From Microtetraspora fusca (lineage in GTDB: Bacteria; Actinomycetota; Actinomycetes; Streptosporangiales; Streptosporangiaceae): a stretch of 64,000 bases of DNA. Numbering within the stretch: the first letter of the stretch is position 1; each line of letters starts with the position of its first letter. The stretch spans positions 1,717-65,716 of the forward strand of contig NZ_BBYK01000070.1 in NCBI RefSeq assembly GCF_001570365.1, written 5' to 3'. Below the pieces are notes generated by a model. That model did no database searches and was not told the origin of the DNA. It saw only the letters and a program-made list of their open reading frames with translations. This document shows, in pieces, positions 15,776 to 42,258 of the stretch. The translations under genes and the position numbers were made by a program.

Positions 15776-16213
15776 TCACTGGGGAGCGGTGACCGGCCGC
15801 CACGGCACCGGGCTGGACAGGACCATGGTGCTGGACGGCCTGCCGTACTGGGCGAGCAGGTCGATCAGCCCCTCGAACTCCTCCATCGACGGCACCGCGA
15901 CCAGGAGCAGGCAGCAGGTGTCGCCGGTGACCCGGTACACCTGGAGGATCTCCGGCCGGGTCAGTGCCTCCTCGTCGCGGAGCACGCACCGGGGGCCGTA
16001 GCAGGACATGCGGATCAGCGCCCGCACCGTACGCCCGGCGAGCCCCAGGTCCACGTGGGCGTGGTAGCCCGAGATCACCCCGGACTCCTCCAGCCGCCGG
16101 ACCCGCTCCGCCACGGCGGGCGCCGACATGTGCACCCGGCGGGACAGCTCGCTGTACGACAGCCGCGCGTCCGCCTGCAACTCGGCCAGGATCGCCCAGT
16201 CCATCGCGTCCAC
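15776..16213 (-). CDS. Lrp/AsnC-family transcriptional regulator
   Basis: A 145-residue feast/famine regulator: N-terminal helix-turn-helix (LDWAILAELQADARLSYSELS-type segment, here DWAILAELQADARLSYSEL, then VHMSAPAVAERVRRLEESGVI) and the alpha/beta RAM domain for amino-acid binding (VTGDTCCLLLVAVPSMEEFEGLI). The GTG start at 16213 has GGGAGG nearby. It is divergent from tryptophan 2,3-dioxygenase across 184 bp, the usual arrangement for an Lrp-type regulator of amino-acid catabolism, so tryptophan or another amino acid is a plausible effector. Confidence 0.92.
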   Translation of the reverse strand: MDAMDWAILAELQADARLSYSELSRRVHMSAPAVAERVRRLEESGVISGYHAHVDLGLAGRTVRALIRMSCYGPRCVLRDEEALTRPEILQVYRVTGDTCCLLLVAVPSMEEFEGLIDLLAQYGRPSSTMVLSSPVPWRPVTAPQ

Positions 16214-16397
16214 GACCGCGCCTCCCGATCACTCCGCGCCGCAGCGCCCGACGATGTGCGAACCGCCGAGCGGCTACGCAAAGCGAACCGCCGATCTGGC
16301 TTCCGAACGGAAGGTCCAAACGGCATATCGCCTTTGTCATGTTATTTCATGCTTTGCCGGGGAGGCGGATCATTGGAGGTGGAACGAGGAGGGAGCC

Positions 16398-17210
16398 ATG
16401 AGAACGCCCACGGTGGACTTCTCTCACCGCACGCCGTATGACGAGTACGTCGGCACCGACGTCTTGCACGCGCTCCTCAGACCGCGGACCGACGTGCCCG
16501 AGGAGCCCGCGTTCCTGGTGACCACGCAGGTCATGGAGCTGTACTTCGGACTGATCAGAACCGAGCTGCGGTTGGCCGTGCGACGGCTGGACGAGGACGA
16601 CGCGGTCGGGGCGACCGCCGTCCTGCGCCGGGTCACGCGCTATGTGGACGTGCTGAACGCGGCCTGGTCGGCGCTGGGCACGCTCACCCCGCCCCGGTTC
16701 AACGCCTTCCGCGAGAGCCTCGGCGAGGCGTCCGGGTTCCAGTCGGCGATGTACCGCCATGTGGAGTTCCTTCTCGGGAACAAGTCCGAGCCGCTGACCC
16801 GCCCGCACCGGGGGAGCCCGGAGGCCTACCGGGAGCTGCTGGCCGCCCTGCGCGCGCCGAGCCTGTACGACGCCGTGCTGGCCCTGCTGTCCCGGAACGG
16901 CCACCCGATCCCTTCGGCGACCCTCGCCCGCGACCCGGCCGAGCCGTACGAGCCGAGCCCGGTGGTGGAGGCGGCGTGGGTGCGTGTCTACACCGAGCTC
17001 GGGCCGGGCGACGCCCTGTGGGAGCTGGCCGAGGCGCTCACCGACGTGGCCGAGCGGTTCTCGGAGTGGCGGCACCGCCATCTGATGGCGGTGCGGCGCA
17101 CGATGGGCGCCAAGATCGGCACCGGCGGCTCCAGCGGCGCGGGCTGGCTGGAGCGCTCGATGGGGCGGGACGTCTTCCCCGAGCTGTGGTCCGCCCGCAC
17201 CGCCATGTGA
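16398..17210 (+). CDS. kynA: Tryptophan 2,3-dioxygenase
   Basis: A 270-residue heme enzyme that opens the indole ring of L-tryptophan to N-formylkynurenine. Family hallmarks: PEEPAFLVTTQVMELYF near residue 34, SLGEASGFQSAMYRHVEFLLGNK at 107-129 and the heme-binding block RHLMAVRRTMGAKIG with axial His228, followed by TGGSSGAGWL. AGGAGGGAGCC precedes the ATG. No kynurenine formamidase or kynureninase is adjacent. The gene is divergent from an Lrp regulator and convergent with the NRPS operon, separated from it by a strong hairpin. In several NRPS pathways a dedicated paralogue supplies kynurenine, so a link to the peptide is possible but unproven; general tryptophan catabolism is the default. 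Confidence 0.95.
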   Translation: MRTPTVDFSHRTPYDEYVGTDVLHALLRPRTDVPEEPAFLVTTQVMELYFGLIRTELRLAVRRLDEDDAVGATAVLRRVTRYVDVLNAAWSALGTLTPPRFNAFRESLGEASGFQSAMYRHVEFLLGNKSEPLTRPHRGSPEAYRELLAALRAPSLYDAVLALLSRNGHPIPSATLARDPAEPYEPSPVVEAAWVRVYTELGPGDALWELAEALTDVAERFSEWRHRHLMAVRRTMGAKIGTGGSSGAGWLERSMGRDVFPELWSARTAM

Positions 17211-17279: not shown

Positions 17280-20200
17280 TCACCGCGCCAGCGCGTGCCG
17301 GTCGGCCTCGTCCTGCAGCTCGTCGAGGTCGGTGCTGATCGTCGCCGTCGGCAGCGCGTCGGGCAGCTCGTCCTCGATGTAGCGGAGCCGCCTCATCCGG
17401 AGCCCGGCGACGCCCCACAGCGTGAGCAGCACGCCCGACACGGCCATCATCGCCCCGATCGCCGGGCCCGTCGCCGCCCCGGTCAGCGACTCCGACCACG
17501 AGGTGAGCGGCGCCGCCGTCAGGTAGCCGATCGGGGTCATCGCGGTGGCCAGCATCTGGTTGGTGGCCAGCACCCGGCCCTGCAGCTCGCCCCTGACCTT
17601 GAGCTGGATGATCGACAGCCAGTGGGCGTTGATCACGCTGGTCGAGCCCCAGCGGAACGCCAGGCCGACCGCGATCAGCGGGACCACCGCCAGCCAGCCG
17701 GTCACGCCGACGAGCACGGTCGCCAGGCCCGCGAGGGCCACGAAGCCGACCATGCCGTCGGCGAGGCGGCGGGTGCCGCCCCAGACCATCATCACGACGC
17801 TGCCGAGCACCGCGCCGAGACCACCGGCCGCCGTCACCACGCCCAGGTCGGCCGCGTCCCCGAGCGACAGCACCATGGGCGAGACCACCGCGAGCGTGAG
17901 CGCGGTGAAGTAGTTGACGGCCATGAAGTACCCGGCCATCACCATCAGCGGGGGCCGCCGCGTGAAGAACCGCCAGCCGCCGGCCACCGCCGCACGGAAC
18001 GACTCCTCCCTGCGCCGGAACATCCGGTTCGGGATCCGTACGGCGAGCAGTGAGAGGAACGCGATCGCGAACGTCACCACGTCGGCGCCGACCACGACCG
18101 GCAGCCCGGCGAGCGCGACGAGCGCGCCGCCCGCCAGCGGGGCGACGAGGTTGCCCAGGCCGAGCCCGGCCTGCGCCAGCGCGTTCGCCTGTGGCAGGTA
18201 CGGCTTGGGCACGAGCTGGGCGATGGCGGCCAGATAGGCGGGCCGGTGGAACGCCGTGACCACCGAGGTCAGCGTCACGACCGCGCAGACCATGACGAAG
18301 TCGAGCCGGTCCAGCCACAGCAGCGCGGCCACCGCCGCCATGGCGAGGCCGTTGACCGCGTCGCAGGCCAGCATGATCCGCCGCCGGTCGTACCGGTCGG
18401 CGATCGCGCCGCCCATCGGGCCGACGAGCACGGTCGGCAGCAGCGCCAGCATCGTGACCAGGGCGAAGTCGAAGACCGCGCCGCTGCGCTGGAAGGTCCA
18501 CACGCCCAGGCCGAACGAGCTGAGCGAGCTGCCGACCATCGACACGAGCTGGCCGATCGCCACGGTGTAGAAACCGCCCAGGCCGCGCGGTCCCGGTCCG
18601 GCCGCGCGCTCCGGCGTGCTCGCGGGTTCGGCGTCCGGCGCGCCCTCGGCGGGCCGCTCGTCCGGATCCGTCCAGCGGCGCAGCGCCTCGGTCAGGTGGT
18701 CGCCGAGCTGGTCGGGCTGGTGGCGCAGGAAGTAGTGACCGGCGTTCGGGATCACGGCGAGCTCGACGCGGTCCGCGAACGCCGTCCACTCCCGGTAGCG
18801 CTCCTCGTACAGCTCCGTGGCGCGGTCGGAGCCGCCGATGACGACGAGCACCGGAGCCCGCAGCCTGGGGCTCTCCGGCTCCGCCAGCCGCCGGGTGAAC
18901 CACGCCTGCGCCTGGCGGGCGTCGTGCCTGAGCGCCTTGACGGCGGTCTCGACCGCCGGGCCCTCCAGGTCCTCGGGCAGGCCGCCCATCGCCCGCAGCA
19001 CGTCGCGGTAGGCGCGGTCCGACAGCCACCGGTCGGCCGGCAGGCGCCGGTTGAACCACGCGGACAGCTTTCCGGGGAGCCGTGCGGTCGGGAAGCTCCC
19101 GCCGAGGAAGACGCCGGTGACCGCCACCCCCGTCTCCTCCAGCCGCAGGGCCAGGGCGGTCGCGAGCGCCGTGCCCACGCAGTGGCCGTAGACCGCGATC
19201 GGCCCGTTCTCCCTGGCGGCGAGCTCGGCCACGCAGCGCTCGACCACCTCCTCCACCGGCTGCGGCTCCTCGTCGGGACGGGCCGGGTCGTGGCCGGGCA
19301 GTTCGAGCGCCAGCACCTCGACGCCCTCCGGCAGCGCCTCCGCGAGCGGGCGGTAGACCGCCGCCGAGCCGCCGCCGTACGGCACGCAGACCACGGTCGC
19401 GGTCGCCGTGGCGCCCGCCTTCGGGCCGCGGAGCCGGTGCAGCAGGCCGCCCCCGCCGCCCTCACCGGAGGCGCGGCCGTCGAGGAGGGCGGCCAGCTCG
19501 CGCACGGTCGGGTTGGTGAACAGGTCGATGACCCGCAGCCCGGCGTCGATCTCGTGGACGGCCTTGACCGCCACGAAGGAGTCGCCGCCCAGCGCGAAGA
19601 AGTCGTCGGTCGCGCCGACGGCCTCCACACCGAGCAGCCGCGCCCAGACCTCCGCGACGCGCCGCTCGGTGTCCGTGGCGGGCGCCACCTGCTCGCCCGC
19701 GCTCGCCGCGCCCAGTTCGGCGACCAGCCGCGTACGGTCCACCTTGCCGTTGGGGTTGAGCGGGAAGGCGTCCAGCAGCGTGATGACCGAGGGCACCATG
19801 TAGTCGGGCAGCGCGTCGCGCAGCGCCGCGCGGACGCCGTCCACCGTCGGCCCGTCCGGAGCGGCGGGGACCACCCAGGCGGCGAGCCGCCGTCCGGTGC
19901 CCTCGCCCACCGGGAGGACCACGGCGTCCGCGACCCCCGGGAGCGCACGGCAGACCGAGGCGACCTCACCCGGTTCGACCCGGTATCCCCGGATCTTCAC
20001 CTGGTCGTCGATCCGGCCGAGGAACTCCACGTACCCCTCGGAGGTCACCCGGGCTTGGTCTCCCGACCGGTACCACCGGCCGTCGTCCCGGGTGACATAG
20101 CGCGGGTCCTCCGGGTGCCCCAGATAGCCCCGCGCCACCTGCGGGCCGCCGATCCACAGCTCGCCCGCCACGCCGTACGGCAGGGCCCGCCCGGCCCGGT

Positions 20201-23200
20201 CGGCCACGAAGCAGCGCGCCTCCGGCAGCGGCAGGCCCAGCGGGACGTTCGCGGTCGCCCGGGTGGCGTCCCGGACCGAGCAGCCGAGCACGGCCACGGT
20301 CGTCTCGGTCGGGCCGTAGTGGACCTGGACCTCCAGGTCGGGCCGTACCTCGGCGATCCGGTCCACCAGCGTCCACGGCACGGCCTCGCCCGCGAGGACG
20401 AGCACCCGGCGCGGCAGCACCGCCGACAGGTCGCCGTGCGAGGCGAGCAGCTCCAGATGGCTCGGCACGCACTTGAGGAAGTCGACGCCGTGCTTCGCCA
20501 TGTGGGCGGCGAAGGCGGGCGGGTCGGTCGCCGTGTCCCGGTCCAGCAGGTGCAGCGCCGCGCCGGTGGTCAGCGCGCCGAACACGTTGAGGATGCCGAG
20601 GTCGGCCGCGGCCGTGGACGCCAGCGCCCACGACGCGAGCGGCCCGGCCGGGGCGAGCCGGGACAGGATCCCGTCCAGGTAGGCCGTGATGTTCCGGTGC
20701 TCGACCGCCACCCCCTTGGGCGTGCCGGTCGAGCCGGACGTGAAGATCACGTACGCGAGGTCCTCGGGGCCGGCCTCGACGTCCGGCTCCTCGGCGCCGG
20801 CGGCCGTCCCGTCCGGGGAGTAGGGCGGGACGGCGGTGACGTCCTCGGGCACGCGGGCCGCGAGGTCCGGGGCGCAGACCACCACGCGGGCCCCGGCGGT
20901 GGACAGCACCGCCGCGATCCGGTCGGCCGGCGCGGCGTCGTCGATCGGGACGTAACCCGCGCCCGCCTTGAGTGCGCCGAGCATGGCCACCGGCAGGTCC
21001 CGGGTCCGCTCCATCAGGACCGCCACCCGGTCCCCGCGTGCCACCCCGGCCGCGCGCAGCCGGCGGGTGAGCAGCCGGGCCCGCTCCTCCAGCTCCGCGT
21101 AGGTGAGGGCGCCGTCCGCCGCCACGACCGCGGTCGCCTCCGGGGTCCGCGCCGCGTGCGCGGAGATCCGGCCGTGCAGGGTCGGCCCGCCGAGCGGCGA
21201 CCGCTGCGGCCCCGTCAGCAGCGCGTCCGCGCCGGGGTCGAGGTCGAGGTCGCCGATCCGGCGGCCGGGATCCGCGGTCATCTGGTCCAGGACCGCCACG
21301 AAGAACCCGGCGAGCCGCCGCGCCGTCGCCTCGTCGAACAGCTCGGGCCGGTACGCCAGGCCGCCCCACAGGCCCGCGCCGGTGTCCTGGACCGTCCAGC
21401 TCAGGTCGAACTTCGCGGTGACCGGCCGCATCTCCACCGCCTCGGCGGCGAGGCCGGGGAAGCCGGTGATCGGGCCGGCCGCGTCGTACACGTTGAGCAG
21501 CACCGGGGGCAGGACCTGCGACCCGCCCGGGCCGAGCGACTCGTCCGCGTGCGCGAAGGCGTCCAGCGTCTCCGCGCGGGCCCGCTCGACGAGGTCCCCG
21601 CCGGTCAGGCCGTCCTCCACCGAGGTGCGGATCACCAGGGTCTGCAGGAAGCAGCCGATGAGCCGCTCGGTCTCGGGGTGCCGCCGGCCGGACTCGGGCA
21701 CCGCCACGCCGATGTCGGAGCCGCCCGACACCCGCGCGAGCATCGCCTGCAGGCCCGCGAGCAGAACCATGAACACCGTGGCGCCGTGCGCGGAGGCGAG
21801 ACCCCGCACCCGGGCGGCCAGGTCGTCCGGCAGCTCCAGGTCCAGCAGGCCGACGCCGGTTCCGGGGGCGGCGGGCCGCACCCGGTCGGCGGGGAGCGCG
21901 ATCTCGGCGGGCATGCCGTCGAGTTGGGTCGCCCACCAGCCGGATTCCGCCGACTCGGCGGCCATCCGCTGCCACTCCGCGATATCCGCGAACTGGCGGT
22001 CGAGGGGAGCGGGCGCGGGCCCGGCCCCCGTACGCGCCGCGTAGAGGTCGGCGAGGTCCCGGAGGAGGACGCCGCGCGACCAGGCGTCGCTCGCGATGTG
22101 GTGGAGCACCAGAGAGAGCACGTGCTCGCGCGGACCGAGCACCAGGATCGCCGCGCGCAGCGGGTACTCCTCGGCCAGCCGGAACGGCCGCCGGGCCAGC
22201 TCGTCCAGGCGCGCCGCCACCGCGGGATCCGGCAGGGAGCGGCCGTCCAGGTCGGCGACCGCCTCCACCACGACCCGCGACGCCGGGCCGGTCACCGCGT
22301 ACGGCTCCGCGTCGCGGACCTCGACGGTCGAGCGCAGCACCTCGTGCCGCTCGGCCAGGTCCACGACGGCGAGCCGGAGCGCCTCCACGTCCAGCTCACC
22401 CTCGAACCGGATCACGACCGGCACGTTGTAGGCCGCGCTGTCCGGGTCCACCTCGCCGGCCAGCCACATCTGGCGCTGCAAGGGGGAGAGCGGGACCGGG
22501 CCGTCGCCCGCGCGCCGGGGGATCCCGGCGGGCGCGGGGGCCGCCTCGCTCCGGGGCAGGGCGTCCAGCGCGGCGGCCAGGTCGGCGAGCACCGGGTGCT
22601 CGAAGATCAGCCGCAGCGGGACCGTGACCCCGAGCCCGACGCCGAGCCGGCCGGCCACGCGTACGGCGGTGAAGGAGTCGCCGCCCAGCGCGAAGAAGTC
22701 GGCGTTCACTCCGATGGCGTCGCCGTCCGCGCCGTTGCCGGCGGCGGCCTTGGACGCGAGCAGCTCCGCCCAGACGCGGGCGATCAGCCGTTCGGTCTCC
22801 GTCGCGGGCGCGGGGCCCGATCCGTCCGAGGCCGGCGGGTCGGACCGGTCGGCCGCGAGCGCGTCGAGCAGGCGGGCGCGGTCCACCTTGCCGTTCGCGT
22901 TGAGCGGCAGCGCGTCCACCAGCGTGATCGCCGAGGGCACCATGTAGTCCGGCAGCACGCGCCGCAGGGCCGCGCGGATCTCGTCCACCGTGGGCCCGTC
23001 CGGAGCCGCGGGGACCAGCCAGGCGGCCAGCCGCCGTCCGGCGCCCTCGCCCGCGGGCAGGACCACCGCCTCCGCCACGCCCGGCAGCGCCCGGCAGGCG
23101 GCGGCGATCTCGCCCGGCTCGACCCGGTATCCCCGGATCTTCACCTGGTCGTCCACGCGGCCGAGGAACTCCACGACGCCGTCGCGGGTGATCCGCACCC

Positions 23201-25775
23201 GGTCGCCGGACCGGTACCACCGGCCGTCCGCCCGCTCCACGTAGCGCGCGTTGCCGGGGTCGCCCAGATATCCCCGGGCGACCTGCGGGCCGCCGATCCA
23301 CAGCTCGCCCGCCACGCCGTACGGCACGGCCCGCCCGGCGGCGTCGGCGACGAAGCAGCGCACGCCGGGGAAGGGGGTGCCGAGCGGCGCCACCGAGCCC
23401 GTGCGCGCGACCGCCCCGGCCGCGCAGCCGAGCACCGAGACCGTGGTCTCGGTCGGCCCGTAGTGGATCTGGACCTCCAGGTCGGGCCGCACCTGCGCGA
23501 TCCGGTCGACCAGCGTCCACGGCGTCGCCTCGCCGGCGAGCACGAGCAGGCGGCGGGGCAGCACCGCCGCGAGATCGCCGTGCGCCGCCAGCAGTTCGAG
23601 CTGGCTCGGCACGCACTTGACCGCGTCCACCTCGTGCCGGCGCAGCCAGGCCGCGTACGCCTCCGGATCGACGGCCGTCTCCCTGCCGAGCACGTGCAGC
23701 GCCGCGCCCGTGGTCAGCGCGCCGAAGACGTTCAGCAGGCCGAGGTCGGCGGCGATCGTCGAGACGAGCGCGTACGAGCGGGGAGCGGCGTCACCCTGCC
23801 CGACCCGGGTGAGCACGGCATCCAGGTACGCGGTCAGCTGGCGATGCTCGACCGCCACCCCCTTCGGCGTGCCGGTCGAGCCGGAGGTGAAGATCACGTA
23901 GGCGAGATCCGCGCCGTCTCCGCTTTCCGCGGCCGCGTCCGCGACGTCGTCGCCGGGGACGACCGCGACGACGCCCTCGGGCAGGCGATCCGCCAGTTCG
24001 GGCGCGCAGACCGCGACACGCACCCCGCCGCCGGCCACCATGGCGGCGATCCGGTCCCGCGGCGCGGCGTCGTCGATCGGGACGTACGCCGCCCCGGTCT
24101 TGAGCACGGCGAGCAGCGCCACCGGCAGGTCCCGGGTCCGCTCCATGAGGAGGGCGACCCGGTCGCCGCGCGCCACCTCGGCGTCGCGCAGCCGCCCGGC
24201 CAGGCCGTTCGCGCGCGCGTCCAGCTCGGCGTACGTGAGCGTGCCGTCCGCCGCCACGACGGCGGTCGCCGACGGCGTACGGGCGGCCTGGGCGGAGATC
24301 CGGCCGTGCAGGGTGGGCGCGCCGAGCGCCGGCGGCGCGGGCTCGGCGAGGGCGGGGTCGGCGCCCGGCTCCAGCTCCAGCTCGCCGACCGGGCGGTCCG
24401 GATCCGCCACGAACTGGGCGAGCAGCGCGCCGAACCAGCCCGCGAGGCGGGCCGCCGTGTCCGGTTCGTACAGGTCCGAGCGGTAGGTGAGCTCGCCGCG
24501 CAGCGCGCCGCCGTCCTCGACGAAGGCCCACGCCTGGTCGAACTTCGCCGCGAACGGCGGCACCTCGAACGGCTCGGCGGTCAGGCCGGGGAAGCCGGCG
24601 ACCTCGCCCGGGGCGTCGTAGACGTTGAGCAGCACGTCGAACAGCGGCGCCGCCGTGCCCGAGCGCGGCGGGCGCACCCGCTCCACGACGCGGTCGAACG
24701 GGACGTCCGCGTGGCCGAACACGTCGAGCGCGGCGGAGCGGGCCTGCCCGACCAGCTCCCTCCCGGTGCGGGCGCCGTCCACCGTCCCGCGTACGACCAG
24801 GGTCTCGACCAGGCAGCCGACCAGCGACTCGGTGTCGGGGTGCCGGCGGCCGGACTCCGGCACGCCCACGGTCACGTCGGCGCTCGCCTCGGAGCCGCCC
24901 GACACCCGCGCCACCGTCGCCTGCAGCGCCGCCAGCAGCACCATGAACACGGTGGCGCCGCTCTCCGCCGCGAGCGCGCGCAGCCGCGCGACCGTCTCGG
25001 GGGCCAGCGGCACGTCCACCACGCCGGCCCGCCACGCCGCCCCGGGAGGGGACGCACGGTCGGGAAGGAGGCCGGGGACCGGTTCCAGCCCGGCCAGCCG
25101 GTCCTCCCACCAATCCAGCGCCCGTTCCGCCTCGGGGGAGGAGGCGCGGGCGGTCGCCCACGCGGCCACGTCCGAGTAGCGCGTCGCGGGCGGGTCGAGC
25201 GCCGGACCGCTCCCCAGCCGGTGCCGGTACAGCGCGGCCAGGTCACCGAGGAGCAGCGGCTGCGCCCATGCGTCGATCGCGACGTGGTGCATGAGCAGGA
25301 GCAGCACGTGCTCCCCGGGACCGGCGGCGAGCAGGGTCGCCCGCAGCGGATACTCCTCCGCCAGCCGGAACGGCACCCGCGCCAGCTCCGCCACCCTGCT
25401 CGGGAGCGCCTCGGGGGCGACCTCCTCCACCGCGACGTCGATCCGGTCCGCCTCGCCGGTGACCGCGTACGGCTCGCCGTCGCGGACCTCCACCGTCGAG
25501 CGCAGCACCTCGTGCCGCTCGGCCAGGTCCACCACGGCCCGCCGAAGCGCGGCGACGTCCAGCTCGCCGCGCAGCCGCAGCGCCACGGGCACGTTGTAGG
25601 CGGGGCTGTCCCGCTCCATCTCGGACGCGAGCCACATCCGCCGCTGCACGGGCGACAGCCGCCAGGGCCCGTCGTCCGCACGCCGGGGGATGCCCGCCGG
25701 CGTCGCCTGGCGCGCCTGGGCGATGCGGCGGTTGAGCAGCTCGCGCAGCCGGTCCTCGCCGGAGACGACGGTCAT
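17280..25775 (-). CDS. NRPS fused to an exporter: C-A-T-C-A-T-TE-MFS
   Basis: One 2831-residue polypeptide. Domains in order (approximate residues): C1 25-450 with HHVAIDA near 161; A1 485-960 with FTSGSTGTPKG near 630; T1 with LGGDS near 1028; C2 1085-1500 with HHIASDA; A2 1525-2000; T2 with LGGDS near 2060; thioesterase 2125-2360 with nucleophile elbow YGHCVG (Cys2199) and a late His in NAGHYFLRHQ; then a Pro/Glu linker and a complete MFS transporter from about 2400 to the end (GFYTVAIGQLVSMVG, loop motif GGAIADRYDRRR, ten to twelve helices). Hand-read adenylation codes are DLLKVAHVSK and DLLKVAHVAK, nearly identical. No epimerase or methyltransferase domain. The ATG at 25775 overlaps the preceding NRPS stop by 4 nt and has AGGAGG upstream. 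It probably elongates, releases and exports the peptide begun by its partner. NRPS/MFS fusions are rare but known from annotation. Confidence 0.93.
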   Translation of the reverse strand: MTVVSGEDRLRELLNRRIAQARQATPAGIPRRADDGPWRLSPVQRRMWLASEMERDSPAYNVPVALRLRGELDVAALRRAVVDLAERHEVLRSTVEVRDGEPYAVTGEADRIDVAVEEVAPEALPSRVAELARVPFRLAEEYPLRATLLAAGPGEHVLLLLMHHVAIDAWAQPLLLGDLAALYRHRLGSGPALDPPATRYSDVAAWATARASSPEAERALDWWEDRLAGLEPVPGLLPDRASPPGAAWRAGVVDVPLAPETVARLRALAAESGATVFMVLLAALQATVARVSGGSEASADVTVGVPESGRRHPDTESLVGCLVETLVVRGTVDGARTGRELVGQARSAALDVFGHADVPFDRVVERVRPPRSGTAAPLFDVLLNVYDAPGEVAGFPGLTAEPFEVPPFAAKFDQAWAFVEDGGALRGELTYRSDLYEPDTAARLAGWFGALLAQFVADPDRPVGELELEPGADPALAEPAPPALGAPTLHGRISAQAARTPSATAVVAADGTLTYAELDARANGLAGRLRDAEVARGDRVALLMERTRDLPVALLAVLKTGAAYVPIDDAAPRDRIAAMVAGGGVRVAVCAPELADRLPEGVVAVVPGDDVADAAAESGDGADLAYVIFTSGSTGTPKGVAVEHRQLTAYLDAVLTRVGQGDAAPRSYALVSTIAADLGLLNVFGALTTGAALHVLGRETAVDPEAYAAWLRRHEVDAVKCVPSQLELLAAHGDLAAVLPRRLLVLAGEATPWTLVDRIAQVRPDLEVQIHYGPTETTVSVLGCAAGAVARTGSVAPLGTPFPGVRCFVADAAGRAVPYGVAGELWIGGPQVARGYLGDPGNARYVERADGRWYRSGDRVRITRDGVVEFLGRVDDQVKIRGYRVEPGEIAAACRALPGVAEAVVLPAGEGAGRRLAAWLVPAAPDGPTVDEIRAALRRVLPDYMVPSAITLVDALPLNANGKVDRARLLDALAADRSDPPASDGSGPAPATETERLIARVWAELLASKAAAGNGADGDAIGVNADFFALGGDSFTAVRVAGRLGVGLGVTVPLRLIFEHPVLADLAAALDALPRSEAAPAPAGIPRRAGDGPVPLSPLQRQMWLAGEVDPDSAAYNVPVVIRFEGELDVEALRLAVVDLAERHEVLRSTVEVRDAEPYAVTGPASRVVVEAVADLDGRSLPDPAVAARLDELARRPFRLAEEYPLRAAILVLGPREHVLSLVLHHIASDAWSRGVLLRDLADLYAARTGAGPAPAPLDRQFADIAEWQRMAAESAESGWWATQLDGMPAEIALPADRVRPAAPGTGVGLLDLELPDDLAARVRGLASAHGATVFMVLLAGLQAMLARVSGGSDIGVAVPESGRRHPETERLIGCFLQTLVIRTSVEDGLTGGDLVERARAETLDAFAHADESLGPGGSQVLPPVLLNVYDAAGPITGFPGLAAEAVEMRPVTAKFDLSWTVQDTGAGLWGGLAYRPELFDEATARRLAGFFVAVLDQMTADPGRRIGDLDLDPGADALLTGPQRSPLGGPTLHGRISAHAARTPEATAVVAADGALTYAELEERARLLTRRLRAAGVARGDRVAVLMERTRDLPVAMLGALKAGAGYVPIDDAAPADRIAAVLSTAGARVVVCAPDLAARVPEDVTAVPPYSPDGTAAGAEEPDVEAGPEDLAYVIFTSGSTGTPKGVAVEHRNITAYLDGILSRLAPAGPLASWALASTAAADLGILNVFGALTTGAALHLLDRDTATDPPAFAAHMAKHGVDFLKCVPSHLELLASHGDLSAVLPRRVLVLAGEAVPWTLVDRIAEVRPDLEVQVHYGPTETTVAVLGCSVRDATRATANVPLGLPLPEARCFVADRAGRALPYGVAGELWIGGPQVARGYLGHPEDPRYVTRDDGRWYRSGDQARVTSEGYVEFLGRIDDQVKIRGYRVEPGEVASVCRALPGVADAVVLPVGEGTGRRLAAWVVPAAPDGPTVDGVRAALRDALPDYMVPSVITLLDAFPLNPNGKVDRTRLVAELGAASAGEQVAPATDTERRVAEVWARLLGVEAVGATDDFFALGGDSFVAVKAVHEIDAGLRVIDLFTNPTVRELAALLDGRASGEGGGGGLLHRLRGPKAGATATATVVCVPYGGGSAAVYRPLAEALPEGVEVLALELPGHDPARPDEEPQPVEEVVERCVAELAARENGPIAVYGHCVGTALATALALRLEETGVAVTGVFLGGSFPTARLPGKLSAWFNRRLPADRWLSDRAYRDVLRAMGGLPEDLEGPAVETAVKALRHDARQAQAWFTRRLAEPESPRLRAPVLVVIGGSDRATELYEERYREWTAFADRVELAVIPNAGHYFLRHQPDQLGDHLTEALRRWTDPDERPAEGAPDAEPASTPERAAGPGPRGLGGFYTVAIGQLVSMVGSSLSSFGLGVWTFQRSGAVFDFALVTMLALLPTVLVGPMGGAIADRYDRRRIMLACDAVNGLAMAAVAALLWLDRLDFVMVCAVVTLTSVVTAFHRPAYLAAIAQLVPKPYLPQANALAQAGLGLGNLVAPLAGGALVALAGLPVVVGADVVTFAIAFLSLLAVRIPNRMFRRREESFRAAVAGGWRFFTRRPPLMVMAGYFMAVNYFTALTLAVVSPMVLSLGDAADLGVVTAAGGLGAVLGSVVMMVWGGTRRLADGMVGFVALAGLATVLVGVTGWLAVVPLIAVGLAFRWGSTSVINAHWLSIIQLKVRGELQGRVLATNQMLATAMTPIGYLTAAPLTSWSESLTGAATGPAIGAMMAVSGVLLTLWGVAGLRMRRLRYIEDELPDALPTATISTDLDELQDEADRHALAR

Positions 25776-28700
25776 GAGCTGGCCTCCTGTCCGGCCATCT
25801 CCGCGATGACCTGTCGTTCCACTTCGGCGGCGTACTCGGCGAGCACGGGATGGTCGAACAGCGCCCGTACGGCGAGGTCGCAGCCGAGCGCCTCGCGCAG
25901 GCGGACCGTCACCCGGGTCGCGAGCAGCGACGTGCCGCCGAGCGCGAAGAAGTCGTCGCGCGCCCCGACCAGAGGGACGCGCAGCACCTCCTGCCAGATC
26001 TCCGCGGCGAACTCCTGCATTGGGCCCTCCGGCGGCGTGTGCGGCGCGGCGGCCACCTCGACGCCCTCCAGCGCCCGCCGGTCGAGCTTGTCGCTGACCG
26101 TGTGGGGCAGCGCGTCGTGCGCGGCCCACCGGCGCGGCACCATGTAACCGGGCAGCCGCTCCCGGGCGTGCTCCTCCAGCTCGGCGGCGCGGGCCTCGCC
26201 ACGCCAGACGACGTGGCCGATCAGATGGGCGTCCGGCCCGGTCGTGGCGACCACGGCGGCGTCGGCGACGGCCGGGTGGGCGCGCAGCACCGCGTCGATC
26301 TCGCCCAGCTCGACCCGATATCCGCGGACCTTGACCTGGCCGTCCACCCGGCCGGCGAAGTCGAGCACCAGCCCGCCCGCGCCGTCCGGGACCCAGCGCA
26401 CGATGTCACCCGAGCGGTAGCGCCGCGCCGGCGCGCCGGGCGGAGCCTCCGGGTCGGGGACGAACGCGGCGGCGGTCAGGTCGGGGCGGCCGCGATAGCC
26501 GCGCGCGACGCCCGGACCGCCCAGCCACAGCTCGCCCGGCACGCCGGGCGGGAGCATCCGGCCGAGCGGGTCCACCACGTACAGCCGCTCGCCGGGGATC
26601 GGGTGTCCGATGGGGACGCTGTCCCCGATCGAGCCGGTCACCGGATGCACGGTGGACGCGACGGTCGCCTCCGCCGGGCCGTAGGCGTTCCAGAGCCCGG
26701 CGACCCGGGTGCGCAGCTCCCCGGCCAGGGCCGGGTCGAGCGGCTCGCCGCCGGCCAGGAGCCGCATCTGCGGCCGGCCGCGCCAGCCCGCCTCCACCAT
26801 CAGCCGCATCCGGCTCGGGGTGGTGAGCACCAGCGTGACCTCCGCGGTGTCACACAGCTTGCCGAGCGCGCGGCCGTCGAACGCGGTCGCGGTGTCGGCC
26901 ACGACCACCCGGGCTCCGGCGGTCAGCGTGGCCCACAGCTCGAACGCCGAGGCGTCGAACACCATCGGCGCCACCGCCAGCACGGCGTCGTCGCGGGTCA
27001 GCCCGGGATCGGCCTGGATGGAGGCGACGAACGCGGCCAGGCTCCGATGGGTGATCTCGATGCCCTTCGGGCGTCCGGTCGAGCCCGACGTGAAGATCAC
27101 GTACGCGAGCCCGTCGGGGTCGGCCTCCGGGATCTCGCCGCGCGGCGCGTCGAGCAGCGCCGCCGCGTCGAGGACGGTCACGCCGTCGAGCCCGGCGACC
27201 GCGGCGTGCGCCTCGTCGCCGAGCGCGAGCACCCGCCGCACCCCGCCGTCCTCGACGATCGCCGCCAGCCGCATGGCCGGCAGGTCGGGGTCCATCGGCA
27301 CGTACGCTCCGCCCGACCGCAGCACGCCGAGCAGGACGGCGGGCAACAGGGGGTCGCGCGGCAGGCTCACCCCGACCGGCTCCTCGGCCGTCACGCCGGC
27401 CGCGACCAGACCCGCGGCGACCCGGGCCGAGAGCTCCTCCAGCTCGCCGTAGGTCAGCCGGCGCCCGGCCGCCTCGACCGCGATCCGGCTCCGGTCCCGG
27501 GCGACGATCGCGTCCACGACGGTCGCGGGCGGCCGGATCTCGGCCCCCGTGCCCGCCGCGAGCAGCGCCGTACGCTCCGCAGGGGAGACCAGCGGCAGCG
27601 CGGAGACCGGCGTGGCCGGGTCGGCGAGGCCGCGGTCGAGCGCGGTCAGCAGCGCGTCGGCCACCCGCCCGGCGTCGGCCACGCCGAACCGCGACGTGGC
27701 GTACTCGACCAGGAGTTCCGCGCCGTCGGCCCCGGCGTTCACCAGGACGCTCAGCTCCGTGGCCGCGCCGCCGCAGTCCAGCTCGCCGACCAGCTCGACC
27801 CTGATCCCCGGTTCCTCCCGCCCGGGCTCAGACGCGATCTCGACGGCGACGGGCACGTCCTCCGGCTGGACCGACAGCACGACCGGCGCTGGACCGGACC
27901 CCGGAGGGCGCGGCAGCGCGGCGGCGACGGCGGCCCCCGCCTGCTCCTGGTGGGCCAGCGCCCCGGTGATCGCCGCGCCGGCCGCGGCCACCAGGTCGCC
28001 GAACGCCGGGTCGTCGCCGAAGCGCACGGGGACGGGCAGCACGCCGAGCAGCGGGCCCACGACCCGGTCGAGGCCGGGCCGGTCGCGTTCGGCCGCGGTC
28101 ACGCCGATCATCGTCTCGGCCCGCCCGGTCAGCCCGCCGACGACGGTGGCGAGCGCGGCCAGGTGGACCGCCGCCGGGGTGACGCCGCGCTCGGCCGCGA
28201 ACCGCCTGATCCGCGCCTCCAGCGCCGGATCAATGGGGCGGCTGAGCCGGCGCCCCTCGTGCGTCGCCGTCCCGGCCGCGCCCAGCAGGTCGTACGGCAC
28301 GGCCGCGTCGGCCAGCGCCTCCCGCCAGTGCGCGCTCTCGCGCTCGACCGCCGCCTCGCGGCGCTCCTCCTCGCCCAGCGCGACGTCGCCCAGCTGGAGC
28401 GCCGGCTCGGGGACGGGACGCCCGGCGAGTCCGGCGGCGACCTCGTCGATGAGGATCCGGGCCGACCAGCCGTCGAACGCGATGTGGTCGGTGACCAGCA
28501 CCAGCTCGGCCGCCGCCGGGCCGGTCCAGGCGAGCAGCGCGCGCAGCAGCGGCACGTCGCCGGTCAGGTCGAACGGCGTCGCCGCCCGGCCGGCGAGGTC
28601 GAGGATCGCGGACTCGCGCGCCGCCGGGTCCAGGCCGCGCAGGTCGTGCTCGTCCACGCGTACGGGCACGGGGGCGTGGACGCGGACGGCCGGCTCCCCG

Positions 28701-30628
28701 CCCCGGTGCTCGATCACGCCGCGCAGCGACTCGTGCCGGCGCACGACGTCGTCGAGCGCGGACCGGAAACGCGCCGCGTCCGCGACGCCGGACACGCGGA
28801 ACCGCATCGCGATCAGCGTCGCGCGGGTGTCCGGCTCCATCTGCCGAAGCGCCCAGAACTGGCGCTGCATGTCGGTCAGCGGGTAGCGGTCGCGGCCCGT
28901 GTGCCGGACCAGGGGGGCGCGCCCGTCGCCCCCGGAGCGTACGCGCCGGGCCAGAGCCGCCACCGTGGGCTCGGCGAGGAACGCGTGCAGCGGCACCTCG
29001 GCACCGAGGTCGGCGCCCGCCCGGGCCACCACCCGGGCCGCGGCGAGGGAGTGCCCGCCGAGGTCGGCGAACCGGTCGTCCACGCCGACCCGGGCGACCT
29101 CGACGCCCAGCACGCCGGCGACGATCGCGGCGAGCCGCCGTTCGAGGTCGTCGCGCGGCGCCGTGGTCGCCTCGTGCGCGGCGGGCCGTACGGCGCCGAG
29201 CGCCTGGCGGTCGATCTTCCCGTTCGGGGACAGCGGGAGGCGGTCGAGCAGGGCCACCCGGTCGGGCACCATGTAGCCGGGCAGGCGCTCGCGCAGGAAG
29301 CCGAGCAGCTCCGGCTCGTCCACGCCGTCGGCCTGGGCGTATCCGGCCAGCCGCCGGGTGCCGTCCGCGTCGGGCAGCGCCAGCACGGCGGCGGCGGCCA
29401 CGCGGGGATGCGCGGTCAGGGCGCGCTCGACCTCGCCCAGCTCGACCCGGTGGCCGCGGATCTTGACCTGGTCGTCGGCCCGCCCCGCGAAGTGGTAGAC
29501 GCCGCCCTCGAACCGGACCAGGTCGCCGGTCCGGTAGGTGTGGCCGAGGCCGGGCAGCTCGACGAACCGGTCCTGCCCGGCCGGGACGCCGTCCGACCGG
29601 TTCAGGTAGCCGCGGGCCACCAGGGGGCCGCTCACCCACAGCTCGCCGGTCTCGCCCTCGGCGACCTCGGCGCCGTCGCCGTCCCGGACGCTCAGCACGG
29701 CGCCCGCGATCGGGAGCCCGATCGGCGGGACGCCGGTCGTGCCGCGCGGCACCTCGTGGGCCAGGCACTGGATCGTGCACTCGGTCGGCCCGTACAGGTT
29801 GAGGACCCGCTCGATCTGCGGGTTGCCGTAGATCGCGTCGATCAGCTCGGGCCACGCCGCCTCGGCGCCGGAGTGCACCAGCCGGGCGCGCGGAGGCAGC
29901 GGTCCGGAGCGCAGCAGCGCCGCCAGCACGGACGGCGGGCCGCCGAGGGACGTCACCTCGTCGCGCGCGGGCAGGCCGGGCAGCGCGAGCAGGTTGTCGG
30001 CCAGGATCACGGCGCCGCCGGCCAGCAGCGGCGCGAAGATCTCCATCACCGACGGGTCGAAGCAGACCGAGGTCGCGGCCAGCGAGCCGGCGAGTGCCTC
30101 GGGCCCCCACGTCTCGACGATCCAGGCGAGCTGGTTCAGCACGTTGCGGTGCTCGACCGCGACGCCCTTGGGCCGGCCGGTCGATCCGGACGTGTAGATG
30201 ACGTACGCCAGGTTCTGCGGGGTGACGGCGGCGCCCGGATCGGTGTCCGGAGCCGTCACGTCGTCGATCCCGGCGTTGATCACGCGCGCCTCGATCGCCC
30301 GGTCGAGGCCGGGGCGCGTGATCAGGGACTTCAGGCCGCTGTCGGCGGCGATGAGCCGCAGCCGCTCCGAGGGGTAGGCGGGGTCCAGCGGCACGTAGGC
30401 CGCCCCCGCCTTCAACACGCCGAGCAACGCCGGGATGAGATGCTCGCCCCGATCGAGCAGCACCCCGACCGGCTCCTCGCGGGCGACGCCGCTCCGCAGG
30501 AGCGTGTGCGCGATCCGGTTCGCGCGCCGATCCATCTCCTCGTAGGAGATCCGCAGATCACCGGCGACGTAGGCGAGCGCGTCGGGTGTGCGCGTCGCCT
30601 GTGCCGTCACCGCCACATGAATGGTCAC
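25772..30628 (-). CDS. NRPS initiation enzyme: A-T-C-A-T
   Basis: 1618 residues. Domains (approximate residues): A1 from the very N terminus, with YTSGSTGRPKG near 145; T1 with LGGHS near 523; C 575-1000 with DHIAFDG near 713 (the catalytic second His is kept, the first is Asp); A2 1037-1500 with FTSGSTGRPKG near 1180; T2 with LGGTS near 1561. There is no starter condensation or acyl-ligase domain, so synthesis should begin on a free amino or aryl acid. Hand-read pocket codes are DPMGVSLIQK for A1 (no match I recognise) and DAFLLGAVAK for A2 (hydrophobic, closest in style to branched aliphatic codes). GTG 30628 begins exactly at the A-domain N terminus; the frame is open to 30715 but that part is AT-rich promoter sequence. 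No MbtH-like gene is in the window. Coupled by ATGA overlap to the second NRPS. Confidence 0.93.
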   Translation of the reverse strand: MTIHVAVTAQATRTPDALAYVAGDLRISYEEMDRRANRIAHTLLRSGVAREEPVGVLLDRGEHLIPALLGVLKAGAAYVPLDPAYPSERLRLIAADSGLKSLITRPGLDRAIEARVINAGIDDVTAPDTDPGAAVTPQNLAYVIYTSGSTGRPKGVAVEHRNVLNQLAWIVETWGPEALAGSLAATSVCFDPSVMEIFAPLLAGGAVILADNLLALPGLPARDEVTSLGGPPSVLAALLRSGPLPPRARLVHSGAEAAWPELIDAIYGNPQIERVLNLYGPTECTIQCLAHEVPRGTTGVPPIGLPIAGAVLSVRDGDGAEVAEGETGELWVSGPLVARGYLNRSDGVPAGQDRFVELPGLGHTYRTGDLVRFEGGVYHFAGRADDQVKIRGHRVELGEVERALTAHPRVAAAAVLALPDADGTRRLAGYAQADGVDEPELLGFLRERLPGYMVPDRVALLDRLPLSPNGKIDRQALGAVRPAAHEATTAPRDDLERRLAAIVAGVLGVEVARVGVDDRFADLGGHSLAAARVVARAGADLGAEVPLHAFLAEPTVAALARRVRSGGDGRAPLVRHTGRDRYPLTDMQRQFWALRQMEPDTRATLIAMRFRVSGVADAARFRSALDDVVRRHESLRGVIEHRGGEPAVRVHAPVPVRVDEHDLRGLDPAARESAILDLAGRAATPFDLTGDVPLLRALLAWTGPAAAELVLVTDHIAFDGWSARILIDEVAAGLAGRPVPEPALQLGDVALGEEERREAAVERESAHWREALADAAVPYDLLGAAGTATHEGRRLSRPIDPALEARIRRFAAERGVTPAAVHLAALATVVGGLTGRAETMIGVTAAERDRPGLDRVVGPLLGVLPVPVRFGDDPAFGDLVAAAGAAITGALAHQEQAGAAVAAALPRPPGSGPAPVVLSVQPEDVPVAVEIASEPGREEPGIRVELVGELDCGGAATELSVLVNAGADGAELLVEYATSRFGVADAGRVADALLTALDRGLADPATPVSALPLVSPAERTALLAAGTGAEIRPPATVVDAIVARDRSRIAVEAAGRRLTYGELEELSARVAAGLVAAGVTAEEPVGVSLPRDPLLPAVLLGVLRSGGAYVPMDPDLPAMRLAAIVEDGGVRRVLALGDEAHAAVAGLDGVTVLDAAALLDAPRGEIPEADPDGLAYVIFTSGSTGRPKGIEITHRSLAAFVASIQADPGLTRDDAVLAVAPMVFDASAFELWATLTAGARVVVADTATAFDGRALGKLCDTAEVTLVLTTPSRMRLMVEAGWRGRPQMRLLAGGEPLDPALAGELRTRVAGLWNAYGPAEATVASTVHPVTGSIGDSVPIGHPIPGERLYVVDPLGRMLPPGVPGELWLGGPGVARGYRGRPDLTAAAFVPDPEAPPGAPARRYRSGDIVRWVPDGAGGLVLDFAGRVDGQVKVRGYRVELGEIDAVLRAHPAVADAAVVATTGPDAHLIGHVVWRGEARAAELEEHARERLPGYMVPRRWAAHDALPHTVSDKLDRRALEGVEVAAAPHTPPEGPMQEFAAEIWQEVLRVPLVGARDDFFALGGTSLLATRVTVRLREALGCDLAVRALFDHPVLAEYAAEVERQVIAEMAGQEASS

Positions 30629-30940
30629 GGGCGCTGACACTAGACAGCAATGATCATCCAGTCGATGATATGTCACATATCTGGTGCCAAAACGGTATAA
30701 GACTGCCTCGCGCACGCTATTGCGGTCTGCGATTTATCCGCATCTCGGCCGTTCTCGCCCTCGAATCCCGGTCGCCCTCCGGCCCTTGTTCGGCGAAAAA
30801 TCTACATCGTAAAGGCGCGCTGCCCTTGCGCGTACGCCGGGACGTCTGATCGGCCACCCGCCGCCGCTTCGCCGGCCTGGGCGGGCGGCAGACCGGCGGA
30901 TCTCGCCGGATTGTCGGAGGGTCTCCCTATTGTCGCGATC
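30629..30940. other. Divergent promoter region of the NRPS operon and the DUF6493-like gene
   Basis: 312 bp between divergent starts. The part at about 30640-30720 is markedly AT-richer than its surroundings and contains a 15-bp palindrome plus an ATCATC/GATGAT inverted pair (30653-30658 and 30664-30669). The right half is GC-rich and featureless. No gene is supported. Confidence 0.6.
30667..30681. promoter_or_regulatory. Palindrome in the NRPS promoter
   Basis: GATATGTCACATATC is a perfect 15-bp palindrome 39-53 nt upstream of the NRPS GTG start, within AT-rich sequence. It is positioned like an operator overlapping the core promoter. The cognate regulator is not adjacent. Confidence 0.6.
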
Positions 30941-35898: not shown

Positions 35899-36972
35899 CT
35901 ATGCGAGCGTCAGCGGGACGTGGTCGCAGTCGTAGCCGAAGTAGCGCGGCCCGGCCAGCGCCAGCCCGGCGGGCGTGGTCCAGCGCGGGTCGCAGGGCGC
36001 GGCGATCACGGTGACCCGCAGGCCGTACCTCATGTTCTCCGTGGTGACCGGCTCGCCGGTCTCGGTGTCGAGCACGCAGATCAGGTCGGGCGTCGTGGCG
36101 ACCACCTCGCCGTCCCGGGTGGCGAGCAGGTGCTCGTTCTGGAAGTTGAGCCGCAGCGTACGGCCGGCGTCGGCTCCCAGCCCCTCAAGGGACGCCTGAC
36201 CGCGGGCGAAGCCGCCGGAGGTGCGGCGCTCCACGTCGATCACCTTCCCGGTGAGGAGGCGCGTGCCGCCCAGCAGGTCACGCGCCGCGGCGACCGGGTC
36301 CGCGTGCTCGTGCCGCGCGAGCCGTACGGCACGGCCGAGGTCCTCGGCCAGGGTGAGCGTGGCCGGGACCAGGCCGTCGCGCAACTGGTCGCCGCGCAGC
36401 ACGGTGTCGGCGCACGACACCTGGCAGCCCATCTCCACGCAGGCCGAGCGGGCGATCCGCTCCGACCACAGGTTGGAGACCGCGTCCACGACGAGCGTGT
36501 TCCCCTTGTCGTCGGCGAGGGCCATGGGCGTGGTCGACACGCCGATCAGCGTGGGCAGCACCATCTGGGCCTCGGGGAAGGCCCGCCCCATGGCGTCGCC
36601 GTCGACCAGCGGGAGTCCCGACTCCGCCGCGGCCGCGATGGGGATCATCGAGTTCACGCCGCCGATCTCGATCGGCACGATGTGCGTCGCGGGCCGTCCC
36701 AGCACGGCCTCCAGCGCGCGCAGGGCAGTGAGCTCCTCCGCGCCGGAGGGCAGCTTCTCCAGCAGGACCGTCGGCGCGCCCATCGCGGAGACCGGCACGA
36801 CCGTCGCGTCGGCCGGCACCTCGTCGATGTCGGCGACCGTCACCGGGCCGTGGCGGCGGATCGCCTCCCGGGCCAGCAGCTTGCCGATGTAGGGGTCGCC
36901 GCCGCCGCCCGTGCCGAGGATGCCCGCGCCGCGGGCGATGTCGTCGAGCTGCTCGATTCCGATCTCACGCAT
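35899..36972 (-). CDS. DUF917-family protein, copy a
   Basis: 357 residues of the DUF917 family, typified by GAGILGTGGGGDPYIGKLL at the N terminus and the VDGDAMGRAFPEAQM and IGGVNSMIPI blocks. Members are almost always encoded beside hydantoinase/oxoprolinase (HyuA-like) genes and are thought to act with them, possibly as the second subunit of an amidohydrolase or as an ATP-dependent partner; the reaction is not established. It overlaps the upstream HyuA-like gene by 8 nt. Glycine-rich TGGGGDP may be a nucleotide or metal site. Last gene of the operon, followed by a 19-bp hairpin. Confidence 0.9.
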   Translation of the reverse strand: MREIGIEQLDDIARGAGILGTGGGGDPYIGKLLAREAIRRHGPVTVADIDEVPADATVVPVSAMGAPTVLLEKLPSGAEELTALRALEAVLGRPATHIVPIEIGGVNSMIPIAAAAESGLPLVDGDAMGRAFPEAQMVLPTLIGVSTTPMALADDKGNTLVVDAVSNLWSERIARSACVEMGCQVSCADTVLRGDQLRDGLVPATLTLAEDLGRAVRLARHEHADPVAAARDLLGGTRLLTGKVIDVERRTSGGFARGQASLEGLGADAGRTLRLNFQNEHLLATRDGEVVATTPDLICVLDTETGEPVTTENMRYGLRVTVIAAPCDPRWTTPAGLALAGPRYFGYDCDHVPLTLA

Positions 36973-38485: not shown

Positions 38486-38503
38486 GGTCGTCCGGTGGTC
38501 CTT

Positions 38504-42193: not shown

Positions 42194-42228
42194 AGCACAA
42201 GGCTACGAACGGTAACGGGATGCTACGG

Positions 42229-42243
42229 TGTGCTCGCAGCACA
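42229..42243. promoter_or_regulatory. PucR-operon palindrome
   Basis: TGTGCTCGCAGCACA is a perfect 15-bp palindrome in the 65-bp divergent region; a further AGCACA half-site lies at 42194-42199 beside the DUF917b start. It is placed to control both directions and is the best candidate for the PucR operator. Confidence 0.65.
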
Positions 42244-42258
42244 TCTTTTGGGGAGATC

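Follow-up and report, generated by a model that had tools for sequence, protein, structure and literature searches.

In the enterobactin system, peptide assembly and export are divided between two separate proteins: EntF, a synthetase with the domain order condensation-adenylation-carrier-thioesterase (C-A-T-TE) whose thioesterase (TE) uses a serine, and EntS, an exporter of the major facilitator superfamily (MFS). Here we describe a gene at positions 17280 to 25775 of a 64,000-nucleotide stretch of the Microtetraspora fusca genome (the window; NCBI RefSeq assembly GCF_001570365.1, contig NZ_BBYK01000070.1, positions 1,717 to 65,716), which combines the same functions in the same order in a single chain, with a cysteine in its TE: a non-ribosomal peptide synthetase (NRPS) runs through its terminal thioesterase into an MFS transporter. 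The EntF model matches the C-A-T-TE part of this protein far below its own cut-off (575 versus 2400 bits). 'NRPS/MFS fusion proteins' exist as an automatic-annotation name, a product name that was not met in this analysis. The proteins so named have the same order, NRPS modules followed by an MFS part, but the name is a label, and literature searches aimed at the fusion met no description of its cysteine TE, of the clade that its members share or of its spread. In the open-access literature these searches likewise yielded no study of a bacterial NRPS-TE-MFS protein, a mention inside a paper being possible; other papers near the topic mention MFS domains that bear no relation to an NRPS fusion. 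The class appears to be little studied.

The order TE-MFS is already in print for fungal lines. Verticillium polyketide synthases are listed as KS-AT-ACP-ACP-TE-MFS (PMC9495618), and an Ophiocordyceps string combining a polyketide synthase with an NRPS ends in Te-MFS-Dehydrogenase-CYP-MT (PMC11057048), so that in the listed order of these megasynthases a thioesterase is followed by an MFS domain as in the bacterial fusion. In the parts of the two papers drawn on here, the fungal lines differ in being polyketide or hybrid systems that are given in a table or as a domain string without functional study, and the Ophiocordyceps string may denote a cluster rather than one protein. Cysteine thioesterases are represented by ObiF1, the obafluorin synthetase, for which a Cys-Asp-His triad is named in the portion consulted of PMC6668435, and by SulM, the sulfazecin synthetase; the corresponding portion of PMC11298585 gives a cysteine together with an aspartate in 'position II' for both enzymes, each of which forms a four-membered ring. 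According to the former source, ObiF1 ends in an MbtH-like domain, whereas the fused protein ends in a transporter. The word 'transporter' does not occur in the main text of either paper, nor 'exporter' in that of PMC11298585.

The fused gene is read from the minus strand as one open frame, which extends from the ATG at 25775 to the TGA at 17280-17282. The initial annotation, made from the letters of the window, had placed an NRPS and an MFS transporter in one polypeptide of the order C-A-T-C-A-T-TE-MFS; its coordinates, strand and domain order are confirmed here. Pfam stretches in the 2831-residue product comprise two Condensation, two AMP-binding, two PP-binding, one Thioesterase and one MFS_1 match, each family exceeding its cut-off (PF00668, 474 bits; PF00501, 498 bits; PF00550, 86 bits; PF00975, 72 bits, E 8e-20; MFS_1, 86.1 bits against a cut-off of 33.4, E 3e-24), and the order was read along the chain using domain seeds taken from the same protein. 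By the Pfam cut-offs and the module order the protein is a modular NRPS with a terminal thioesterase, and by MFS_1 its transporter half belongs to the major facilitator superfamily. PF05977, a family that we take to include EntS, is also over its cut-off in this half.

A missed stop codon or a frameshift, introduced by sequencing or assembly, could in principle have joined two neighbouring genes (the genome of 9.0 Mb is assembled in 108 contigs, with the window lying within contig C69). However, the third codon position is rich in guanine and cytosine in one constant phase across the NRPS part, the linker and the entire MFS part, so that the nucleotide sequence gives no sign of a frameshift, and the frame is kept in independent assemblies across many genera. 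The chance of such an artefact is practically negligible: the TE-MFS fusion is genuine.

We scanned genome contigs with a 22-sequence TE-MFS alignment and kept the best 80 of at least 557 relatives. Because one of the two scan patterns demanded YGHC, this set is biased towards cysteine TEs. TE and MFS lie in one open frame behind A or T domains in all 80 kept relatives, which range from C-A-T-TE-MFS (about 1800 residues) to C-A-T-C-A-T-TE-MFS; several of the frames extend upstream past the end of the contig or locus. Three phyla besides Actinomycetota are represented, namely Chloroflexota, Bacillota and, by one metagenome-assembled genome (MAG), Spirochaetes. The hosts include many actinomycetotal genera, Herpetosiphon and two further Chloroflexota MAGs, Paenibacillus, Fontibacillus and a Paenibacillaceae MAG, together with the Spirochaetes MAG. 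The fusion is thus kept in other genera, and the notion that the two halves always occur as separate genes in homologues is contradicted.

With the MFS half alone as the query, 108 of the 249 genomes of the order gave a match at E<=1e-40; seven candidates were scored per genome in this search, and the per-genome counts are lower bounds. Among the 150 matches listed, 149 lie in frames of at least 1338 residues, as judged by frame length, and the remaining one lies in an 881-residue frame carrying both TE and MFS motifs. In a sample of the class, for which three candidates were scored in each genome, matches at E<=1e-90 came from 21 of 345 genomes, and 42 of the 47 matches listed span TE and MFS in one frame. 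A sample of the phylum gave matches in 7 of 396 genomes at E<=1e-60 (two candidates scored per genome); the fused rows came only from the M. fusca genome itself, the other six rows being MFS only. That genome holds five fused copies (contigs C69, C76, C75, C65 and C40) among its nine TE matches at E<=1e-8. On the strength of the order, class and phylum counts, the NRPS-TE-MFS arrangement is frequent in its own order, occurs patchily through the rest of the phylum and is found in some members of other phyla, and the gene described here is, as an individual, one of many of its kind in the order. The initial annotation's view of such fusions as uncommon is therefore wrong for the order, given the 108 matching genomes and the fused state of five of the nine TE matches in the genome itself.

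Among solved proteins, ObiF1 (PDB 6n8e, E 2e-45) is closest to the TE in sequence; its triad lines up, with the offset constant at 20, with Cys89, Asp207 and His237 of the 721-residue TE-MFS stretch. In the numbering of the full protein, the putative triad consists of Cys2199 (codon 19179-19181), Asp2317 and His2347. The cysteine stands in GxCxG throughout three overlapping sets of 32, 22 and 48 fused sequences, some of these sequences having one extra residue after it. Judged from these alignments, the fused TEs are ObiF1-type cysteine thioesterases with an invariant Cys-Asp-His triad. They resemble the TE of SulM in the nucleophile and in the aspartate in 'position II', but the Gln-Cys-Asn motif given for SulM in the section consulted of PMC11298585 is absent from them, and they read His-Cys instead. 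The cysteine, overlooked in the initial annotation, may be the more telling feature of the protein.

How closely the cysteine follows the fusion is seen in an unbiased Thioesterase-family search of seven genomes, which gave 41 matches (E<=1e-8) in five of them, all read at the sequence level. In 17 cases the frame continues from the TE into an MFS domain, and each of these TEs reads GHC; being mutually related, they do not represent 17 independent events. The 24 unfused TEs in these related genomes, free-standing ones included, have serine in 20 cases and cysteine in four, and a restriction of the cysteine to fused TEs was rejected on account of these four. In addition, three NRPSs on proteobacterial plasmids have GHC TEs with no MFS-like gene within the approximately 5 kb fetched, so the cysteine TE is distributed more widely than the fusion. 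Formation of a beta-lactone as a rule of the family was also rejected: in 4 of 79 relatives the terminal code presumably reads Gly, in which case a beta-lactone or beta-lactam ring could not form. The terminal A-domain code in the window is not what we take to be the usual Ser or Thr one, and beta-lactone formation can therefore not be assumed for its product.

Averaged over 48 fused sequences and with settings chosen by us, the hydropathy of the transporter half displays 12 hydrophobic maxima, and the lysine plus arginine sum in these sequences is ∼26 in the loops predicted to lie inside versus ∼2.6 in those predicted to lie outside. Together with the MFS_1 score, this positive-inside pattern agrees with the complete transporter of the initial annotation; the domain is predicted to have 12 helices with both termini inside, a topology that would place the TE on the cytosolic side. 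Motif A (GxxxDRxxRR-like, between helices 2 and 3) reads GGAIADRYDRRR in the window, where it is located at 18413; its D350, R351 and R355 are invariant in the 48 sequences, and one of the 22 sequences of the smaller alignment has DK. Motif C of MFS drug/proton antiporters, GxxxGPxxGG, belongs to helix 5. The corresponding position reads GxxxAPxxGG in the window and is variable among the relatives. An acidic tail following helix 12, EDxLPDAxP ... DLDxxQxEAD, is conserved across the aligned fused proteins.

TE and transporter are joined in the window by 33 residues rich in Pro, Ala, Glu and Gly, in keeping with the Pro/Glu linker noted initially. In the 48 fused sequences, the linker measures 15-75 residues (median 25) and is richest in Ala, Pro, Arg and Gly. 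Such variation in length fits a loose, flexible tether better than a rigid channel or fixed conduit, and a sealed channel from TE to pore, which is not supported, is disfavoured by it. The Pro/Ala-rich and probably exposed linker would also be suited to a full-length protein whose transporter is freed by a protease cut, or to an internal start with the same effect, in which case the parts would work separately; in 6 of the 48 sequences, a loose Shine-Dalgarno-like site does accompany an in-frame start in the region from the linker to the first helix. However, the stretch tested in the window has no in-frame start with a Shine-Dalgarno-like site, and inspection by eye of 12 of the 48 linkers, made without a cleavage-site search, revealed no common cleavage motif. 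We consider separately working parts improbable.

The two halves share their history. For 48 fused proteins, the distance matrices of TE and MFS correlate with r 0.949, a value that none of 1000 permutations reached. In the MFS tree (38 fused and 17 stand-alone rows) all fused rows fall on one side of a branch (89/83), as they do in the TE tree (35 fused and 15 unfused rows; 96/98). The rows of both trees were chosen by hand, the 15 unfused TEs being drawn from the 24 of the unbiased search, and the tree program flagged the stand-alone branches as long. These data show that the TE and MFS halves were inherited together; the simplest, though unproven, reading is a single fusion event with subsequent descent and transfer.

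We therefore favour, and regard as likely, a genuine NRPS that ends in a membrane exporter and that makes, releases and exports one small peptide. The stop codon of the upstream partner NRPS and the start codon of the fused gene overlap within ATGA, and the four modules encoded by the two genes are thus expected to act together. The two proteins (A-T-C-A-T, then C-A-T-C-A-T-TE-MFS) would assemble a peptide of about four residues, which would pass from the last carrier domain to Cys2199; the TE, a cysteine enzyme of the ObiF1 kind, would release it by hydrolysis or cyclisation, and the 12-helix MFS domain, to which a flexible linker in the cytosol connects the TE, would export it. We infer that release is by the cysteine TE, that the fused protein is localised at the membrane and that the MFS pump carries the product of this NRPS. 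The fusion would place the TE at the inner opening of its own pump, keep the assembly line at the membrane, fix the ratio of synthetase to exporter at 1:1 and raise the concentration of the product at the pump.

Stand-alone relatives of the transporter bear on its cargo. In six related genomes, a gap separates the near MFS relatives (E<=3e-52) from other MFS proteins (E>=3e-20), and the sole stand-alone protein among the near relatives is encoded by a gene that overlaps an NRPS gene. The two genes form a split pair in the same genus (L194; G061:C15:195185-200328), in which the NRPS stop overlaps the ATG of the stand-alone MFS gene (ATGA) and which ties this kind of pump to NRPSs. L260, one of six stand-alone relatives elsewhere in the phylum whose surroundings were fetched, adjoins an NRPS. 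Alternatively, the cargo of the transporter half might not be the NRPS product but, for example, a precursor or a lipid, by analogy with proteins in which an acyl-ACP synthetase is fused to a lysophospholipid transporter. This would agree with those stand-alone MFS relatives that are not beside NRPS genes, but the gap in the six genomes and the overlap of the only near stand-alone gene with an NRPS gene speak for the peptide, and we judge another cargo to be quite unlikely.

Several observations weigh against a peptide-exporting synthetase. The direction of transport is taken from knowledge of the family. In the split pair, the MFS protein lies apart from the fused branch, and its partner NRPS has a TE of a different type, GWC. 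Three of the stand-alone relatives (L258, L259 and L263) adjoin DNA polymerase III alpha-like genes, a fourth (L262) a DUF2126/transglutaminase gene, and a fifth (L261) has no NRPS domain in the ∼18 kb around it; with such neighbours, peptides are not the only association of the wider MFS clade. The window sequence by itself, analysed at a different cut-off, resolved into overlapping segments instead of 12 distinct ones, and a sequence search for a PDB chain related to the MFS half returned one match at chance level (E 0.11) and no related chain.

The fusion could, furthermore, be mainly an anchoring and expression device, providing co-expression and membrane placement while the pump exports without a hand-over from the TE. 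The fivefold variation in length of the Ala/Pro/Arg-rich linker and the existence of a split yet overlapping NRPS/MFS gene pair in the same genus are in line with such a device. On the other hand, co-expression alone would be expected to resolve into separate genes more often, whereas all 80 kept relatives and all 150 of the MFS-only matches listed are still fused. We rate this alternative as a serious possibility that falls somewhat short of an even chance.

Export of NRPS products and self-protection of the producer are mostly deduced from neighbouring transporter genes. Where the transporter is part of the synthetase, as in the peptide-exporting synthetase proposed here, the cargo is suggested by the protein itself, and cutting one linker would allow a test of whether release and export are coupled. 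A GHC thioesterase followed by an MFS domain also provides a search tag for an apparently little-studied class of peptides, and NRPSs in which a cysteine thioesterase is fused to a transporter deserve a direct test. The features of the fused gene and of its upstream partner are compiled in Table 1.

Table 1. Positions in the window of the fused gene, its domains and the partner NRPS gene.
Feature	Position	Strand	Basis
Fused NRPS-thioesterase-MFS gene, 2831 residues, C-A-T-C-A-T-TE-MFS	17280..25775	-	Open reading frame, Pfam, codon-phase plot, domain order
Condensation domain 1	24330..25682	-	Domain-order analysis; best stretch of Pfam PF00668
Adenylation domain 1 (core), code DLLKVAHVS	23034..24293	-	Domain-order analysis; code on GrsA anchor
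Carrier (T) domain 1	22545..22745	-	Domain-order analysis; Pfam PF00550
Condensation domain 2	21207..22514	-	Domain-order analysis; condensation matches
Adenylation domain 2 (core), code DLLKVAHVA	19890..21161	-	Domain-order analysis; best stretch of PF00501; code reading
Carrier (T) domain 2	19473..19625	-	Domain-order analysis
Thioesterase domain, putative Cys nucleophile, ObiF1-like triad	18705..19397	-	Pfam PF00975; alignment with ObiF1 6n8e; conservation
TE-transporter linker, 33 residues, rich in Pro, Ala, Glu, Gly	18573..18671	-	Linker analysis
MFS transporter domain, 12 predicted membrane helices	17400..18572	-	PF07690 and PF05977 over cut-off; averaged hydropathy, charge
C-terminal tail, EDxLPDAxP ... 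DLDxxQxEAD	17283..17399	-	Consensus of aligned fused proteins
Upstream partner NRPS, 1647 residues, A-T-C-A-T, codes DPMGVSLIQ and DAFLLGAVA	25772..30715	-	Pfam, domain order, codes

The positions of the specificity codes were set on a GrsA anchor which, like the amino acid readings of the codes, we assume to be correct. The terminal A domain is readable in 79 of the 80 relatives, 71 of which have K at 278 and H at 322; the codes include DLTKIAHVS (32 relatives), DFTKIAHMI (18) and DLLKVAHVA (8). We take these common codes to be Asp/Asn-like. In more distant fused proteins the terminal codes are presumably Asp- or Ser-like, the latter in some paralogues.

In four of the 80 loci, all from Amycolatopsis (L053, L054, L057 and L092), the fused gene is directly followed, at about 10.9-14.1 kb of the loci, by genes for SbnA, an OTCase-like carbamoyltransferase and an SbnB-like protein, of which SbnA is over its cut-off in L053 and the SbnB-like gene is below. 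The set resembles the gene trio of viomycin and capreomycin and is likely to supply carbamoyl-diaminopropionate. In these hosts the ureido nitrogen of a terminal carbamoylated diaminopropionate could attack the cysteine thioester and, as the peptide is released, close a six-membered dihydrouracil ring. This putative chemistry forms part of a wider proposal, in which cysteine TE and MFS domain would act as one release-and-export unit and hold the acyl-cysteine until the transporter is ready, such that reactive or ring-closed peptides would never enter the cytosol; taken as a whole, we find the proposal improbable. For the window cluster, diaminopropionate is not supported: no SbnA or SbnB match in the M. 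fusca genome passes the curated cut-off, and when the SbnA, SbnB-like and carbamoyltransferase proteins of Amycolatopsis served as tblastn queries, neither the window nor the fetched paralogue regions gave a match.

Other loci carry other neighbours. In four Herpetosiphon loci (L094, L096, L099 and L100) and four Paenibacillaceae loci (L104, L106, L107 and L108), the fused gene is closely preceded by a gene for a GT4 glycosyltransferase; in L094, L104 and L107, the three loci scanned, the order is A-T protein, GT4, C-A-T-TE-MFS. Adjoining the fused gene in eight loci of two phyla, the GT4 gene indicates that the product may be glycosylated there. A gene for a KamA-like radical SAM aminomutase, below its cut-off in L105, follows the fused gene in Spirochaetes and Chloroflexota MAGs (L105, L111 and L113) and suggests a beta-amino acid building block in those loci. 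Neither a glycosyltransferase nor an aminomutase was found among the 20 window frames scanned, a subset of the window genes, nor were siderophore genes (catechol, hydroxamate or uptake).

Genes for a tryptophan 2,3-dioxygenase (16128-17210) and an AsnC-type regulator (15776-16213) adjoin the end of the fused gene and are retained in the three orthologue regions of the same genus that were examined. They are probably not cluster genes, as they were not found in the ∼12 kb downstream in Bailinhaonella, where both NRPS genes are kept. On the other side, at 30911-33655, lies the gene for a 914-residue protein with only a sub-threshold match to DUF7824, transcribed away from the NRPS operon. Farther along, positions 35899-43740 hold genes for an S-Me-THD-like protein, hydantoinase/oxoprolinase-like proteins, a permease of the cytosine/purine type and a PucR-type regulator, a block that looks like a catabolic operon.

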